Source: Granulicella mallensis (lineage in GTDB: Bacteria > Acidobacteriota > Terriglobia > Terriglobales > Acidobacteriaceae). Taken from it: a DNA stretch of 64,000 bases. This document shows positions 10,852-16,839 of the stretch, one piece after another. The stretch is taken from positions 124,001 through 188,000 of the forward strand of contig NZ_JACHIO010000012.1 of the NCBI RefSeq assembly GCF_014203225.1, written 5' to 3'. Position numbers and translations under genes: made by a program. How positions within the stretch are numbered: the first letter of the stretch is position 1; the number at the start of each line of letters is the position of its first letter. The notes below the pieces were generated by a model. It searched no databases, was not told the origin of the DNA, and worked only from the letters and a program-made list of their open reading frames with translations.

Positions 10852-11412
10852 CTACGAGAGCGTATCTCGTACGCGTGCTAGATCCTCTTCCGTATCGATA
10901 TCGAGCTCAAGCTTTTCATTCGCCACCACTCGCGCAGTCCGCAGCAGCTCACGCGCACCCACATCGCCACTCAACTGCTGCAAGCCTTCGAAGCTCGACG
11001 CAGGAAAGTACGCTGGAATGCCAACTCTGCCTGCGTATCCTGAACCAGCGATGTTTGCAGGCTCCTCGCATAGAGCCCGCAGATGCTCAGGACTTATTGC
11101 GACCTGATCGCAGGTCATCAATACGGCGCCACTGACCTTCAGCATCTTCGCCACAACTACACCGCGGCGAATCGAGGACGCCATACCCTCTGCGGCACTT
11201 TCGTTGATCACGACAAGGCAGCCCAACTGTTGCAGCGAGTGACCGAAGTCGCCCTCAGGATTAATAACAGCGATCACCGGCGAAAGTCCGGCCTCCTGCG
11301 CCACACGCACGGCACGCTCCACCAGCGTTTCACCATCGAGCACAACTGTCTGCTTTGGCCTGCCCAGCCGGGTCGAAGAACCTGCTGCCAGAACAATACC
11401 CGCAATACTCAT
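10852..11412 (-). CDS. MocA/MobA-like molybdenum cofactor nucleotidyltransferase
   Basis: The 186-residue protein opens with MSIAGIVLAAGSSTRLGRPK, the nucleotide-binding signature of the MobA/MocA family (LAAGxSxRxGxxK), and ends with DIDTEEDLARV, also typical. MocA transfers CMP to molybdopterin to make the cytosine dinucleotide cofactor for xanthine-dehydrogenase-type enzymes. The open frame extends further upstream, but the start chosen at 11412 gives an ATGA overlap with the stop of the XdhC gene, indicating translational coupling. This pairing with XdhC supports molybdenum hydroxylase maturation rather than MobA. No hydroxylase subunit is in the window. Confidence 0.85.
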   Translation of the reverse strand: MSIAGIVLAAGSSTRLGRPKQTVVLDGETLVERAVRVAQEAGLSPVIAVINPEGDFGHSLQQLGCLVVINESAAEGMASSIRRGVVVAKMLKVSGAVLMTCDQVAISPEHLRALCEEPANIAGSGYAGRVGIPAYFPASSFEGLQQLSGDVGARELLRTARVVANEKLELDIDTEEDLARVRDTLS

Positions 11413-12470
11413 AGAGCACACTGCGTCTGTACGTAGCGCGACGCTCCTTCTTTGGCGATCAGCGCCATAACCGTTTCGGGGGCCATGCGCCGCGAGGCAC
11501 CAAGCTTCCCTTCGCGACAGGCTTGAATCTCCGCAACGATTGAAAGAGCAATCGCCTCCGCGCCATCGCCGCCAAGATCCAGCCCAACAGGAGCGAAGAT
11601 TCCCGCGCAGACACGTTCCAGCGTCCACCCCAACAGGACAGCCGCTTCGCTCACCAGCAGGGCGCTGCGATGCCGCGCTCCCAGCAATCCGAGATAGCGT
11701 GGGCTGTGGGGCAAGACAGCCGCAAGCCACGCTCGGTCCTGCTCATAACTATGCGTCATCACGGCAACGGCATCTCTTGAATCGATATGCAAATCGTCAG
11801 CAACTGGCAATACGAGCACACGCTCCGCTTCGGGAAAGCGCTCGGCCCGCGCCCATTGGGGACGCGCATCCACCACAATAACGCTCCACCCCAGCAGCGA
11901 TGCCATGCGCACAACCGGCCGAGCATCGTCGCCCGCCCCAAAGACAAAGAGCCGCTGTGGCGGCTCAAGCGTTTCGCAGAAGGTGTTGCCGGAATCGGAA
12001 TGACAGTCAGAACTGACACGTGAAGGAAAAGCAGTCTTCACGCTCTGGACGATACGGTACAGTGCCGTTCCAACGATCGGAAGCCCCGTTTCGACAAACA
12101 GCGTCTCGCCCCGCAGGGACGAACGCATGGCCTCCATCAGCCTCTCGAACTCGGGTGTCCCCGCTGGTTCGAGCAAGAGGTTCACCGTGCCACCGCACCC
12201 GAGACCGTAAGGAATCTCAGCCGTGTCATCGAACAAGGTCGAGTAGCGCTGAATCGTAGCGCCCTCGCGGACGAGCCATTTCGCCTTGCGAACGACCTCG
12301 GCCTCCAAACAGCCACCAGAGATAGAACCTGCATAATCGCCGTTCGCAGCCACCAATAGCCGTGCGCCTGTACGACGATAGCTCGAGCCTTCCACGCGCA
12401 CGAGCGTTACCAGGGCTTCGGCATCGCCCCGCTCCCAAAGCTCAACAATCTGGCGACGTTCGCGCATCAT
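11409..12470 (-). CDS. XdhC/CoxI family molybdenum hydroxylase maturation protein
   Basis: A 353-residue protein of the XdhC/CoxI family, which binds and sulfurates the molybdenum cofactor and delivers it to xanthine- or CO-dehydrogenase-like enzymes. The N-terminal XdhC_CoxI domain shows LVRVEGSSYRRTGARLLV and GSISGGCLEAEV, with YGLGCGGTVNLLLEP after it. The C-terminal Rossmann-like half has LFVFGAGDDARPVVRMA and GLLGARHRSALL. It overlaps the MocA-like gene by four bases and follows cysH by only 21 bases, so it may be read through from the sulfur operon. The sulfur link is plausible because XdhC acts in cofactor sulfuration, but this is inference. Confidence 0.88.
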   Translation of the reverse strand: MMRERRQIVELWERGDAEALVTLVRVEGSSYRRTGARLLVAANGDYAGSISGGCLEAEVVRKAKWLVREGATIQRYSTLFDDTAEIPYGLGCGGTVNLLLEPAGTPEFERLMEAMRSSLRGETLFVETGLPIVGTALYRIVQSVKTAFPSRVSSDCHSDSGNTFCETLEPPQRLFVFGAGDDARPVVRMASLLGWSVIVVDARPQWARAERFPEAERVLVLPVADDLHIDSRDAVAVMTHSYEQDRAWLAAVLPHSPRYLGLLGARHRSALLVSEAAVLLGWTLERVCAGIFAPVGLDLGGDGAEAIALSIVAEIQACREGKLGASRRMAPETVMALIAKEGASRYVQTQCAL

Positions 12471-12491: not shown

Positions 12492-13181
12492 TTATTCTTT
12501 CTCGCTAAAGGTATGGATGCCGCATTCCAGCTTTTTGCCGCCCCAGCGTCCGCTGCGCGCATCCGCACCCGCTGCTGGAATGGCCGTGCAGGGCTCGCAG
12601 CCGATACTCGTATAGCCCTGGTCGTAGAGCGAGAGCCGTGGAATCCCGTGCTCCTGCGCGTAGGCCTCAACCCGTGCCCAGTCCCAGTCCGCCAGGATGC
12701 TGATCTTCTTCATCTGCTTGCCGGTCGGCAGCTTATGGTCTTCAATCTTCTTGAGCCCCGCGCGTGTCGGAGACTGCTCACGCCGCAGCCCTGTAAACCA
12801 CCAGGAGTACGGCTCCAGCGAGCGCATGAGCGGCTCGACCTTGCGAATCTGGCAGCACTTGGTGGGCTCCACAATATGCAGGAGGCCAAACTCTTTCTCA
12901 TGCTCGGCGAGCGTCGTGCGCGGCATCGCGTTAATGAGGTTCAAATCCCACTCCTGCGCCAGACGATCGCGATACTCGATCAGTGCGGGAAAGTGATATC
13001 CCGTCTCGAGAAAGATCACCGGCACATGCGGCAGCTGTTTGCGCAGCAGATGCAGCACGACCATGTCTTCGGTCTGGAAGCTGCTCGTCAGGCACACAGA
13101 TTCACCGTGCGACTCGCGCACGATCTCTGCGACCAGCTCTTCCGCCTGCAACGATTCGACATCGACTGACACCGTGCTCAT
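12492..13181 (-). CDS. cysH: Adenylyl-sulfate (APS) reductase, CysH family with Fe-S cysteines
   Basis: The 229-residue protein reduces activated sulfate to sulfite using thioredoxin. It has the CysH core (TSSFQTEDMV, FLETGYHFP). It also has the two cysteine pairs that bind a [4Fe-4S] cluster in APS-type reductases: CC at 109-110 and CEPC at 195-198. The catalytic Cys220 is in LECGIHTF near the C-terminus. The cluster cysteines indicate APS rather than PAPS as substrate, consistent with no functional APS kinase domain in CysN next door. It overlaps the cysN stop by four bases (ATGA). It is expressed from the cysD promoter region. Confidence 0.93.
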   Translation of the reverse strand: MSTVSVDVESLQAEELVAEIVRESHGESVCLTSSFQTEDMVVLHLLRKQLPHVPVIFLETGYHFPALIEYRDRLAQEWDLNLINAMPRTTLAEHEKEFGLLHIVEPTKCCQIRKVEPLMRSLEPYSWWFTGLRREQSPTRAGLKKIEDHKLPTGKQMKKISILADWDWARVEAYAQEHGIPRLSLYDQGYTSIGCEPCTAIPAAGADARSGRWGGKKLECGIHTFSEKE

Positions 13182-14821
13182 CGCTTCGCCTCCAGCCAGG
13201 TCCGCGCAGCCTCAAGGCCCTGCACGAAGTGGTCTTCAGTAGATGATTGAAGCGCGGCAACAGTTTCAGAGCTCAGAGCTGCGCGCGCGGAGATGGCTGT
13301 TACACCCGCAAGCTGCAGAGCACGAGTCACCGCTACCAGAGCACTCTCCGGAATCAGTGAATCGTCGACGATCACCGCCCGCTGACCGAGATGATGCAGT
13401 TCTTCACGGAACGAAATGGCCGCAGCTTCATCGCCCTGGAAGAAGAGGAAGGCCGGTTTGTGCTCGATGGCACTCTCGGAGTCATCTATCGACGCGTTAA
13501 TCATCGCCGCACCCACCGTTGCGTTGGTTACCGCGTCGATCAGGATCAACGATCCCGCGCCGCGGCTCTCGGCATAGGTATCAAAGAACAGCGGCAGGCT
13601 GGTCTCGAACTCCACCTCGGCGATGTCGTTCATCGCGAGCTTCGCAGCATCGCGATGCTCGGTCGTGTTCACGTCCACGCGATAGCGGATCGTCCGCACA
13701 GTGGCACGCACGGTGCGGGTCGTGTGTTTGGCCAGGTAGGTCTTGCCTACGACGAGCGGGTCTTCGCCCATCCACACCACCATCGCGCGGAACTGCGTGC
13801 TGATGAGCGGCGATGCCTGATCTTCTGCCACCAGCATCTCGCCGCGGCTGAGATCGATCTCGTCCTCAAGCTCAAGGGTTACGCTCTGCGGAAAGCTCGC
13901 GGACTTCAACTCGCCATCGTAGGTCACGATGCTCTTCACGCGCGTGGTGCGCCCGCTCGGCAACGCCTTCACCCGCAGACCGGGCTTCACCTCACCGCGT
14001 TCAACGCGGCCGGCAAACCCTCGAAAAGTCGCATCGGGCCGTACAACCAACTGCACGGGAAAACGCAGTGGTCCATGCTTGGCCTCAACCAGTTCCAGAG
14101 GCACGGTCTCCAGGTACTCCAGCAGCGTGGGACCGGTGTACCACGGCATGGCCGTCGAGGGCTCCACTACATTGTCGCCAGCCAACGCGCTCACGGGGAT
14201 GATCTCCACACTCGGCAGACCGAGCTGCGTCGTAAGTTTGCCGTACTCCTCGCGAATGCGCTGGAACAGCTCTTCGGAGTAACCGACGAGATCCATCTTG
14301 TTCACCGCCGCCACCACATGCGGAATCCGCAGCAGGCTGGCGATATACGTGTGGCGGCGCGACTGCGGCAGTAAGCCATCGGCCTTCGCAAAAGCGTTCG
14401 CATCGATGAGAACAATTGCTACGTCGGCGGTGGAAGCTCCAGTCGCCATATTGCGCGTGTACTGCTCGTGCCCGGGAGTATCGGCGATGATGAACTTCCG
14501 CTTCGAGGTCGAAAAGTAGCGATAGGCCACATCGATCGTGATGCCCTGCTCGCGCTCCGCCTTCAGACCATCAGTCAGCAGCGAGAGATCGACGACACCC
14601 GCACCCGCGCGGTTCACTCGGCTGGCACGGATCGAAGCGAGTTGGTCTTCATACACACTCTTGGTGTCGTGCAGCAGACGGCCAATGAGCGTGCTCTTGC
14701 CGTCGTCGACACTACCGGCGGTAGTAAAGCGCAGCATCTCCTGGTCGAGATGCGCATCGAGAAAAGCGCGGAAGGCCGTCTCGCGCACACTATCGTTCAA
14801 ACCCAATCCCTGTGTGCTCAT
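13178..14821 (-). CDS. cysN: Sulfate adenylyltransferase subunit 1 (CysN GTPase) with extra C-terminal domain
   Basis: CysN couples GTP hydrolysis to APS formation by CysD. The 547-residue protein has the P-loop GSVDDGKS (36-43), DTPGHEQYTRN and NKMDLVGY, followed by two elongation-factor-like beta-barrel domains ending near VTNATVGAAMI at about residue 450. About 100 further residues follow, which plain CysN lacks. They contain a Rossmann-like pattern (AFLFFQGD, then REELHHLGQRAVIVDD) placed where CysNC proteins have APS kinase, but no P-loop. I read this as a decayed APS kinase domain. The ATG starts directly after the cysD TAA, with GGAGGG inside the cysD end. Confidence 0.94.
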   Translation of the reverse strand: MSTQGLGLNDSVRETAFRAFLDAHLDQEMLRFTTAGSVDDGKSTLIGRLLHDTKSVYEDQLASIRASRVNRAGAGVVDLSLLTDGLKAEREQGITIDVAYRYFSTSKRKFIIADTPGHEQYTRNMATGASTADVAIVLIDANAFAKADGLLPQSRRHTYIASLLRIPHVVAAVNKMDLVGYSEELFQRIREEYGKLTTQLGLPSVEIIPVSALAGDNVVEPSTAMPWYTGPTLLEYLETVPLELVEAKHGPLRFPVQLVVRPDATFRGFAGRVERGEVKPGLRVKALPSGRTTRVKSIVTYDGELKSASFPQSVTLELEDEIDLSRGEMLVAEDQASPLISTQFRAMVVWMGEDPLVVGKTYLAKHTTRTVRATVRTIRYRVDVNTTEHRDAAKLAMNDIAEVEFETSLPLFFDTYAESRGAGSLILIDAVTNATVGAAMINASIDDSESAIEHKPAFLFFQGDEAAAISFREELHHLGQRAVIVDDSLIPESALVAVTRALQLAGVTAISARAALSSETVAALQSSTEDHFVQGLEAARTWLEAKR

Positions 14822-15766
14822 TTAGAAGTAGCCCTCCCGCTTCTTCAGCTCCATGGAGCCCTCTTCATCGTGATCGATCGCGCGGTTCTCGCGCTCGCTG
14901 CGGCGGAACGTAATCAGCTCCTCGATAATCTTCGGCAGCGTATCCGCATCGCTGCGAATCGCACCTGTGCAGGGCAGGCAGCCCAGCGAACGCATCCGCA
15001 CCTTCATCAGCTCAGGCTTCTCGCCGGGCAACAGCCGTACGCCATCATGTATCAGCGTGATCGAACCGCCACGCACAACCGCCAGACGCTCTTCCGCAAA
15101 GTACAGTGGGACGATAGGGATCTGCTCCGAGTAGAGGTAGAGCCAGATATCGAGCTCCGTCCAGTTTGATAGCGGAAATACGCGGATGCTCTCGCCCTTG
15201 CGCAGGCGCGAGTTGTAGAGGCTCCACAGCTCGGGCCGCTGGTTCTTGGGGTCCCACTGTCCTGCCCCGTCACGGAAGCTGTAAACACGCTCCTTCGCAC
15301 GGCTCTTCTCTTCATCGCGCCGCGCGCCGCCAAAGGCAGCGTCAAAGCCTCCCTCTTCCAGGGCATCCAGCAGAGACCGCGTCTTCAAAGCACCGCAGCA
15401 GTTCTGCGTGCCGAGCTTCCAGGGGCTGGCTCCATCGGCGATCGCCGCCTCGTTACGATGCACAATGAGATCGGCGCCGATCTCCTTCGTATAGGTGTCG
15501 CGAAATGAGATCATCTCCGGAAACTTGTAGCTGGTATCGATGTGCAGCAGCGGAAACGGAATCTTGCCCGGATAAAACGCCTTCTGCGCCAGCCGCAACA
15601 TCACGCTCGAGTCCTTGCCGATGGAGTACAGCATCACCGGCTTCGCGAACTCGGCCACAGCCTCGCGCAGAATATAGAGGCTCTCGGCTTCAAGCGCCTG
15701 CAGATGGTTCAGCCGCTCGCGCAGCACCTCCGAGACGTTTTCTTCTGGAGCAGTTTTGATTGGCAA
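14822..15766 (-). CDS. cysD: Sulfate adenylyltransferase subunit 2 CysD
   Basis: The 314-residue protein is an ATP-pyrophosphatase-fold enzyme that forms APS from sulfate and ATP together with CysN. It shows [13 protein letters not shown] (PP-loop), [32 protein letters not shown] and the C-terminal [10 protein letters not shown] followed by [11 protein letters not shown], all typical of CysD. The start is TTG at 15766, five bases after a strong AGGAGG. The 140 bases between the leader ORF and this start contain several possible hairpins. First gene of cysD-cysN-cysH. Confidence 0.95.
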
Positions 15767-15770
15767 GGAA

Positions 15771-15904
15771 TCCTCCTGGTTCGGCGCATTTGCACCCGCG
15801 CCTCCGGCTGACCTGCCGGCAATGGATAAATCTGGAATTTGATGGGGGTAAAGGTACCAACTACAGGCTGTAAAAGAGAAGGACAGCCAGGTTGCGGAAA
15901 GGTG
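15771..15904 (-). promoter_or_regulatory. Candidate attenuation region between Cys-rich leader and cysD
   Basis: On the minus strand, GGCTGT occurs twice: inside the leader ORF (forward 15911-15916, encoding Gly-Cys) and again at forward 15883-15888. Both can pair with a single ACAGCC at forward 15866-15871. The leader also contains an ACAGC that can pair with its own GGCTGT. These are mutually exclusive stems of the kind used in ribosome-mediated attenuation. Two further short hairpins lie just before the AGGAGG of cysD. No clean T-run terminator is seen, so control could be at termination or at ribosome access. RNA structure was judged by eye only. Confidence 0.5.
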
Positions 15905-15946
15905 TCAACAACAGCCAAAGAGCTGTGGACAGCGACAACCGCACAT
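15905..15946 (-). CDS. Cysteine-rich leader peptide upstream of cysDNH
   Basis: The 13-residue reading frame encodes MCGCRCPQLFGCC followed by TGA. Five of thirteen codons are cysteine (TGC, TGT), the last two directly before the stop. It ends 138 bases before cysD on the same strand. AAGGAG is 14 bases upstream of the ATG; a GTG five codons earlier in the same frame would give an 18-residue peptide with six cysteines. A different frame from ATG 15957 overlaps it and is not Cys-rich. Placement before sulfate assimilation genes suggests that ribosome stalling at Cys codons senses cysteine supply. Polycysteine upstream ORFs are known to me from mycobacterial sulfur genes. Translation here is inferred. 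Confidence 0.65.
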   Translation of the reverse strand: MCGCRCPQLFGCC

Positions 15947-15981
15947 ACAGGTAACATTCACTCCTTCTATTCTACGCGGGC

Positions 15982-16009
15982 CGTATAGCTTCAGCAATCT
16001 CCGGCTCAA
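15982..16009 (-). promoter_or_regulatory. Candidate sigma70-type promoter for the cys operon leader
   Basis: Reading the minus strand, TTGAGC (forward 16004-16009) and TATACG (forward 15982-15987) are separated by 16 bases, about 35 bases before the leader ATG. Each matches four of six consensus positions. An alternative -10 (TAGAAT, forward about 15968-15973) would remove most of the leader SD. Only a tentative call. Confidence 0.3.
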
Positions 16010-16187: not shown

Positions 16188-16264
<77 letters not shown>

Positions 16265-16337: not shown

Positions 16338-16655
16338 TCAGGCCGTCCGGCTCATCGCGCGGGACACTTGCATGGGCGTCCACTCGCCACCCCGCCGCGT
16401 CACAATGCCACGCTCATTTAGACCCTCGGCGATTGCCTTGAGGCTGACAGGGTCAGCCAGTTGAATATCTTCGATCACAGGCAGAACGTCGTGCGCCCAC
16501 TCATCGGCTTTTTGCGACCGTATCGCTGTCCCGGCTTTGCGCCCCTCAGCCGCGATACCGACACAGGCTTTCGCAGATACGCGGCGTCCGCCTAGCACCG
16601 TGCCGCGAGCCTTCGCAGCCTCAAGAGCCGCTTTTGTGCGTTGGGAGCTCAATTC
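16338..16655 (-). pseudogene. Serine recombinase remnant (C-terminal part)
   Basis: The minus-strand frame contains LSSQRTKAALEAAKARG followed by a [20 protein letters not shown] segment. These match the linker helix and DNA-binding tail of resolvase/invertase-type serine recombinases. The catalytic N-terminal domain, with its active serine, is absent: upstream of about 16655 the frame has no recombinase similarity. The longer open frame to 16754 is therefore probably not a gene. Its place beside tRNA-Pro suggests the relic of an integrated element. Confidence 0.7.
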
Positions 16656-16839
16656 GGGCTTTAGCGCGAGTCTGCCAGGAAGCGGAGCAGGAGGTCGCTC
16701 AACTCCTCGGGCGCCTCCAGGAAACGCCTCGGTCTGCATGGAGCTACAACGCACATTTCAGATACTACCGATGCAATGGCGAGTGCGAATATCCAGCAAG
16801 AAAACGGATAGAGGCAGACGAAGTGTTTTCGACTGCATG

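Follow-up and report, generated by a model that had tools for sequence, protein, structure and literature searches.

Leaderless ORFs with runs of Cys codons are located before cysteine operons in mycobacteria (Shell 2015, PMC4633059). Canestrari et al. 2020 showed, according to PMC9031893, that these leaders are attenuators responding to cysteine (PMC13236596 also cites that work). Cys leader peptides without terminators have been predicted in Actinobacteria (Seliverstov 2005, PMC1262725). For Acidobacteria, annotation of amino-acid attenuation was essentially lacking, with a known function for almost no predicted attenuator (PMC2965389), and no report of cysteine attenuation in Acidobacteriota was found in the literature searched.

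The window, which is the whole stretch of 64,000 nucleotides of Granulicella mallensis DNA that was analysed, carries a cysDNH operon on its minus strand. A short ORF rich in codons for the end product (Cys, six of 18 codons) lies between the promoter and the first gene, and this element very probably serves as the cysteine sensor of an attenuator operated by the translating ribosome. The preliminary description had likened it to the Cys-rich upstream ORFs of mycobacteria, and the analogy is supported: the acidobacterial leaders are likewise predicted to be leaderless, have Cys-codon runs heading sulfur or cysteine operons, and are proposed to stall ribosomes at low cysteine. They differ in belonging to another phylum, in preceding cysD and the sulfite reductase gene, and in having highly diverged peptides. 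In addition, many acidobacterial leaders have intrinsic terminators, whereas the mycobacterial ones lack them (PMC1262725) and are described as translational attenuators. The actinobacterial leaders of Seliverstov resemble the window leader in their Cys codons near the stop codon, their position upstream of cys operons, and the lack of an obvious terminator; they are restricted to Actinobacteria (PMC1262725), and sequence similarity to the acidobacterial leaders is not expected. The features of the locus are as follows.

12492..13181, minus strand: cysH, APS/PAPS reductase, an ORF with a Pfam PAPS_reduct match
13178..14821, minus strand: cysN, sulfate adenylyltransferase large subunit, an ORF with a Pfam GTP_EFTU match
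14822..15766, minus strand: cysD, sulfate adenylyltransferase small subunit, with a TTG start and the SD sequence AGGAGG (TIGR02039, 438.7 bits)
15767..15904, minus strand: spacer of 138 nt from the leader stop codon to cysD, rut-like, with C 26 and G 10 in its first 78 nt and without a U-run terminator
15804..15819, minus strand: hairpin P3, CCGGC-AGGUCA-GCCGG, with the same arms and a variable loop in the sister species L027
15866..15888, minus strand: hairpin P2, GGCUGU-CCUUCUCUUUU-ACAGCC, with one compensatory pair change in L027 (GGUUGC/GCAGCC)
15905..15946, minus strand: the 13-codon frame MCGCRCPQLFGCC of the preliminary description, internal to the leader ORF
15905..15961, minus strand: leader ORF from GTG to TGA, MNVTCMCGCRCPQLFGCC, predicted to be leaderless, 18 codons with 6 Cys codons that are conserved in relatives
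15969..15974, minus strand: −10 element TAGAAT, with 7 nt between its end and the in-frame GTG (15961)
15992..15997, minus strand: −35 element TTGCTG, 17 nt upstream of the −10 element, a layout common to L029, L027, and most relatives

Downstream of cysH, XdhC-like and nucleotidyltransferase-like ORFs run in the same direction (10852–12470, minus strand) and may belong to the cysDNH transcript.

The frame MCGCRCPQLFGCC does extend from the minus-strand ATG at 15946 to the TGA at 15905, with 138 nt between its stop codon and the TTG of cysD at 15766, as had been described. The choice of ATG 15946 as the start codon is probably wrong, as the sigma-70-type promoter upstream of the leader (TTGCTG, 17 nt, TAGAAT, 7 nt) points to the in-frame GTG at 15961, 15 nt upstream. 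With this start the leader has 18 codons and six Cys codons, rather than 13 and five, and it ends in contiguous Cys codons (TGT TGT TGA). The spacing of the −10 element suggests that transcription starts at or beside GTG 15961, so that MNVTCMCGCRCPQLFGCC is probably leaderless, a design that was missed as a result of the misplaced start codon. The corresponding leaders are MKVTCMCGCRCPQLFGCC in L029 (G002) and MEVMCIAGCCCPRPFGCC in L027. When 120 leaders were scored for the pattern TTGnnn-N16–18-[TCG]AnnnT ending 4–12 nt before the start codon, such a promoter was present in 91 (2.6% in shuffles), and an SD-like sequence preceded the start of just two. By promoter prediction, the leaderless design thus appears general among acidobacterial cysD leaders. 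Leaderless initiation is plausible in this phylum, because leaderless genes were estimated at 9.7–19.4% in three acidobacterial genomes (PMC3160421).

Judged from the window sequence alone, the leader is only mildly unusual and carries little weight: when the intergenic region was shuffled by dinucleotide, 25 of 2000 shuffles yielded an ORF with at least six Cys codons including Cys-Cys. Its conservation indicates that the Cys leader ORF is not a product of chance. The cysD upstream regions compared came from named public genomes and from relatives at the level of genus, family, order, and class; they were searched for an ATG-initiated ORF of 6–45 aa with Cys-Cys and at least three Cys codons. 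Such an ORF is present on the sense strand in 111 of the 159 non-redundant acidobacterial regions (70%), compared with 3/159 on the antisense strand (1.9%) and 3.3% in shuffles; the ATG-only rule makes this an undercount, as L140, L205, and L219 have leaders with a GTG start. The preliminary description had made its reading depend on conservation of the Cys codons in relatives, and they are conserved. Only two of 46 cysD regions from other phyla (4%) contain such an ORF, and because the leader thus does not exceed chance in these 46 regions, convergence is likelier than common descent. By this comparison, the acidobacterial leaders would work like the mycobacterial ones and are probably not descended from them.

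Within the same genus as the window, a Cys leader is located upstream of cysD in 23 of 24 loci, and the lone exception (L022) still shows TGTTGTTG runs there. In the same family, 12 of 106 loci have no leader even on inspection; in at least some of these, cysD lies closely behind another gene or within an operon. The peptides diverge strongly between genera (e.g., MHRTPACLTCCSCCCQACSCGCACCR, MRISCQLRCCCPFNVEQACRLTR, MVRASKSRSCCCLSNIFDGCTC, MVVFVNRACCCCRMLPCPCPRCCR), with Cys being what stays. Several same-genus loci (L008, L010, L012, L013, L014, L017, L019, L023, and L024) have leaders in which the Cys run has been lost and just one or two Cys codons are left, and these keep the motif R-[IV]-[AT]-R-C-[PS], which is similar to the RIAACC motif of sulfite reductase leaders. 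No Rfam match besides tRNA was found at gathering score in eight leader loci, with the window region searched to E 5.

Upstream of the window leader, a tRNA-Pro(CGG) gene (16188–16264) adjoins an ORF (16338–16754) that resembles the terminal part of a serine recombinase; an element may once have integrated at the tRNA and left this remnant. Pseudo-ORFs antisense to tRNA (GFEPTTPCSRSRC...) are located upstream of cysD in L034, L175, L180, L181, L186, and L216, which suggests that a tRNA gene stands beside the cysD leader in another genus also; a tRNA was found upstream of cysD in L180. At G009:C4:164979-165854, the cysD match falls into four pieces in different frames, which points to either a pseudogene or errors in the assembly.

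A second leaderless Cys leader, MSFSRIATCCLCPGTGASMLVAR, is located in the same genome before the sulfite reductase gene (sir; L266, contig C9, minus strand, position 2598). As found by a promoter-plus-leader detector, MSFSRIATCCLCPGTGASMLVAR starts at ATG, 7 nt after a −10 element. Behind it, immediately ahead of the sulfite reductase start, GCCCACGAAAAGTTTCGTGGGC and a U-run together form a strong intrinsic terminator. The stem of this terminator is kept across ten species, with 93% of cells paired (28–47% when slid) and double changes at two pairs. Cys leaders precede the sulfite reductase gene likewise in many relatives, and the cysK upstream regions (L221–L250) contain no convincing leader.

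Some cysD leaders of relatives likewise have intrinsic terminators. Four segments can be recognised in the large clade whose leaders read ...CCCLSNIFDGC. Region 1 (CCUGUCGAA) comes right behind the Cys run and pairs with region 2 (UUCGACGGGUG), located where the leader ends. Region 2 also has complementarity to region 3 (CACCCG), and region 3 in turn pairs with region 4 (CGGGUG), ahead of a U-rich stretch. The layout so modelled is the classical 1:2, 2:3, 3:4 arrangement. Relatives were folded with the ribosome at the stop codon or at the Cys run, in 44 loci with a candidate hairpin. When the ribosome is moved to the Cys run, terminator probability decreases from 0.88 to 0.30 in L134, from 0.88 to 0.10 in L157, from 0.76 to 0.03 in L178, and from 0.98 to 0.36 in L015. 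The decrease exceeds 0.3 in 13 of the 44 loci, and its mean is 0.14, compared with 0.05 for shuffled spacers (p 0.025). For about two thirds of the loci with terminators, the model predicts no switch, and some of the terminators scored there are weak. Given these weak candidate hairpins and the many loci in which the probability does not fall, support is moderate for the folding model reproducing a ribosome-controlled switch in a subset of relatives' loci. The g9-clade cysD leaders and the sir leaders share with the trp, his, and leu attenuators a leader ORF containing regulatory codons, a hairpin that follows these codons, a predicted antiterminator, and an intrinsic terminator. The acidobacterial leaders differ in that Cys is the regulatory amino acid, initiation is predicted to be leaderless without an SD sequence, and the window's own leader has no terminator.

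Two alternatives would deprive the Cys codons of a sensing role. Bacterial Cys-rich small proteins exist, and the many Cys residues of the leader could suit a functional product, such as a metal-binding peptide. However, leader length varies from 11 to 45 aa, the sequence outside Cys is not conserved, and no match was found in NCBIfam for eight, or in Pfam for six, of the longer relatives' leaders. Codon choice likewise speaks against a small protein: Cys accounts for 21% of leader codons (0.7% in the window's genes), and TGT makes up 74% of these Cys codons, compared with 16% in the window's genes, where it is the rarer Cys codon. With the fixed position before cysD and sir, this makes a small protein improbable. 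Even less credible is the idea that the TGTTGTTG repeat, a string that recurs in many leaders, is bound by some factor as an RNA or DNA motif, the reading frame being incidental. In 69 loci whose start was set by the strict promoter only, TGYTGY occurs 144 times in frame 0, four times in frame 1, and twice in frame 2, which indicates that the constraint acts on codons rather than on an RNA or DNA motif; moreover, the Cys codons are scattered, with TGT and TGC mixed. The genome-wide pattern TGYTGYTGYTG gave no information because of coding repeats. The codon sensor is the reading retained, and conservation, phasing, and TGT enrichment together uphold the part of the earlier interpretation that placed regulatory Cys codons upstream of cysDNH.

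The other part, a specific alternative-hairpin switch, fares differently. It proposed a trp-type arrangement in which GGCUGU in the leader and GGCUGU downstream compete for ACAGCC, setting cysDNH expression. Both copies (GGCTGT at 15916–15911 and 15888–15883) and ACAGCC (15871–15866) are present at the positions that had been given, L027 retains P2 with a single compensatory pair (covariation at P2 and P3 being limited by a window clade of three distinct sequences only), and a ribosome stalled at codons 7–11 moves part of the L001 and L029 ensemble to the leader pairing (0.01–0.72). At all other ribosome positions P2 has a probability of about 0.98 in the short L001 transcript. In L027, however, no shift occurs (0.04 or less) and P2 forms at every ribosome position. 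Neither hairpin has a U-run behind it or masks the SD sequence, the triple of a hexamer present twice plus its complement occurs in 7.5% of leader-transcript shuffles, and the window leader folds no better than shuffles (z −0.5); such a switch is thus unlikely. Ribosome-dependent SD masking was also considered and dropped, as the accessibility of the cysD SD sequence is flat over ribosome positions in the window leader and in class B leaders, a same-genus group with only one or two Cys codons left. A terminator scan found no intrinsic terminator between the window leader and cysD. Because the spacer is C-rich and rho is present in the window's genome, Rho-dependent control is the leading, albeit unproven, candidate for the output of the window leader, and we regard it as a tentative possibility for the window clade. 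The leader ribosome would control access of Rho to the C-rich, G-poor spacer, similarly to E. coli tnaC, in which a ribosome in a leader ORF also adjoins such a region; tnaC is an arrest peptide responding to tryptophan, whereas sensing here would be codon starvation, and the role of Rho here is only predicted. By C minus G, the first 78 nt of the spacer fall within the highest 1.5% of windows, and they contain a YC ladder (9% background); C exceeds G after the leader, compared with upstream, in 87% of loci, and the same idea was put forward for mycobacterial cys leaders (PMC1262725). However, C-richness may reflect just an unstructured spacer, and an early stall would expose the spacer instead of covering it; the sign of the effect would then be reversed, unless the ribosome stalls mainly at codons 17–18.

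The mechanism that we propose for the codon sensor is as follows. Transcription would begin at the leader start codon or within a base or two, and this position of the start site suggests that the leaderless mRNA is taken up by a 70S ribosome, which translates MNVTCMCGCRCPQLFGCC. Under a shortage of charged tRNA-Cys, this ribosome would stall at the Cys codons and cysDNH expression would continue; when cysteine is plentiful, it would reach the stop codon and downstream expression would be cut. For many relatives, and for sulfite reductase in the window's own genome, the output would be an intrinsic terminator; for the window cysD leader, the likeliest output is termination by Rho within the C-rich spacer, or else a translational control. 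Direct support comes from the leader ORF and its conservation, the Cys-codon phasing, the position of the promoter, and the terminators in relatives; from these we infer leader translation, stalling, the response to cysteine, and the output step in the window. The Cys leader sensor is convincingly conserved and codon-based, and control by cysteine is a strong inference from the sequence comparisons.

On balance, we lean toward a broader view in which a cysteine regulon of Acidobacteriota, comprising at least cysDNH and sulfite reductase, is lineage-wide under leaderless Cys-codon leaders that arose independently of those of mycobacteria. In this view the sensor is retained, and the output alternates, even among members of a single genus, between intrinsic terminators and designs that lack a terminator and perhaps depend on Rho. 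Cysteine attenuation was previously known from actinobacteria only, and the case in Acidobacteriota is new in the literature searched. The leader of the cultured strain Granulicella mallensis MP5ACTX8 is nearly identical to that of the window, which makes the proposal directly testable. The acidobacterial Cys leaders link leaderless initiation to attenuation and offer natural replicates, with a sensor that stays constant and an output that changes. A Cys sensor that is leaderless, codon-phased, and widespread among abundant soil bacteria would mean that the same solution has apparently arisen independently.
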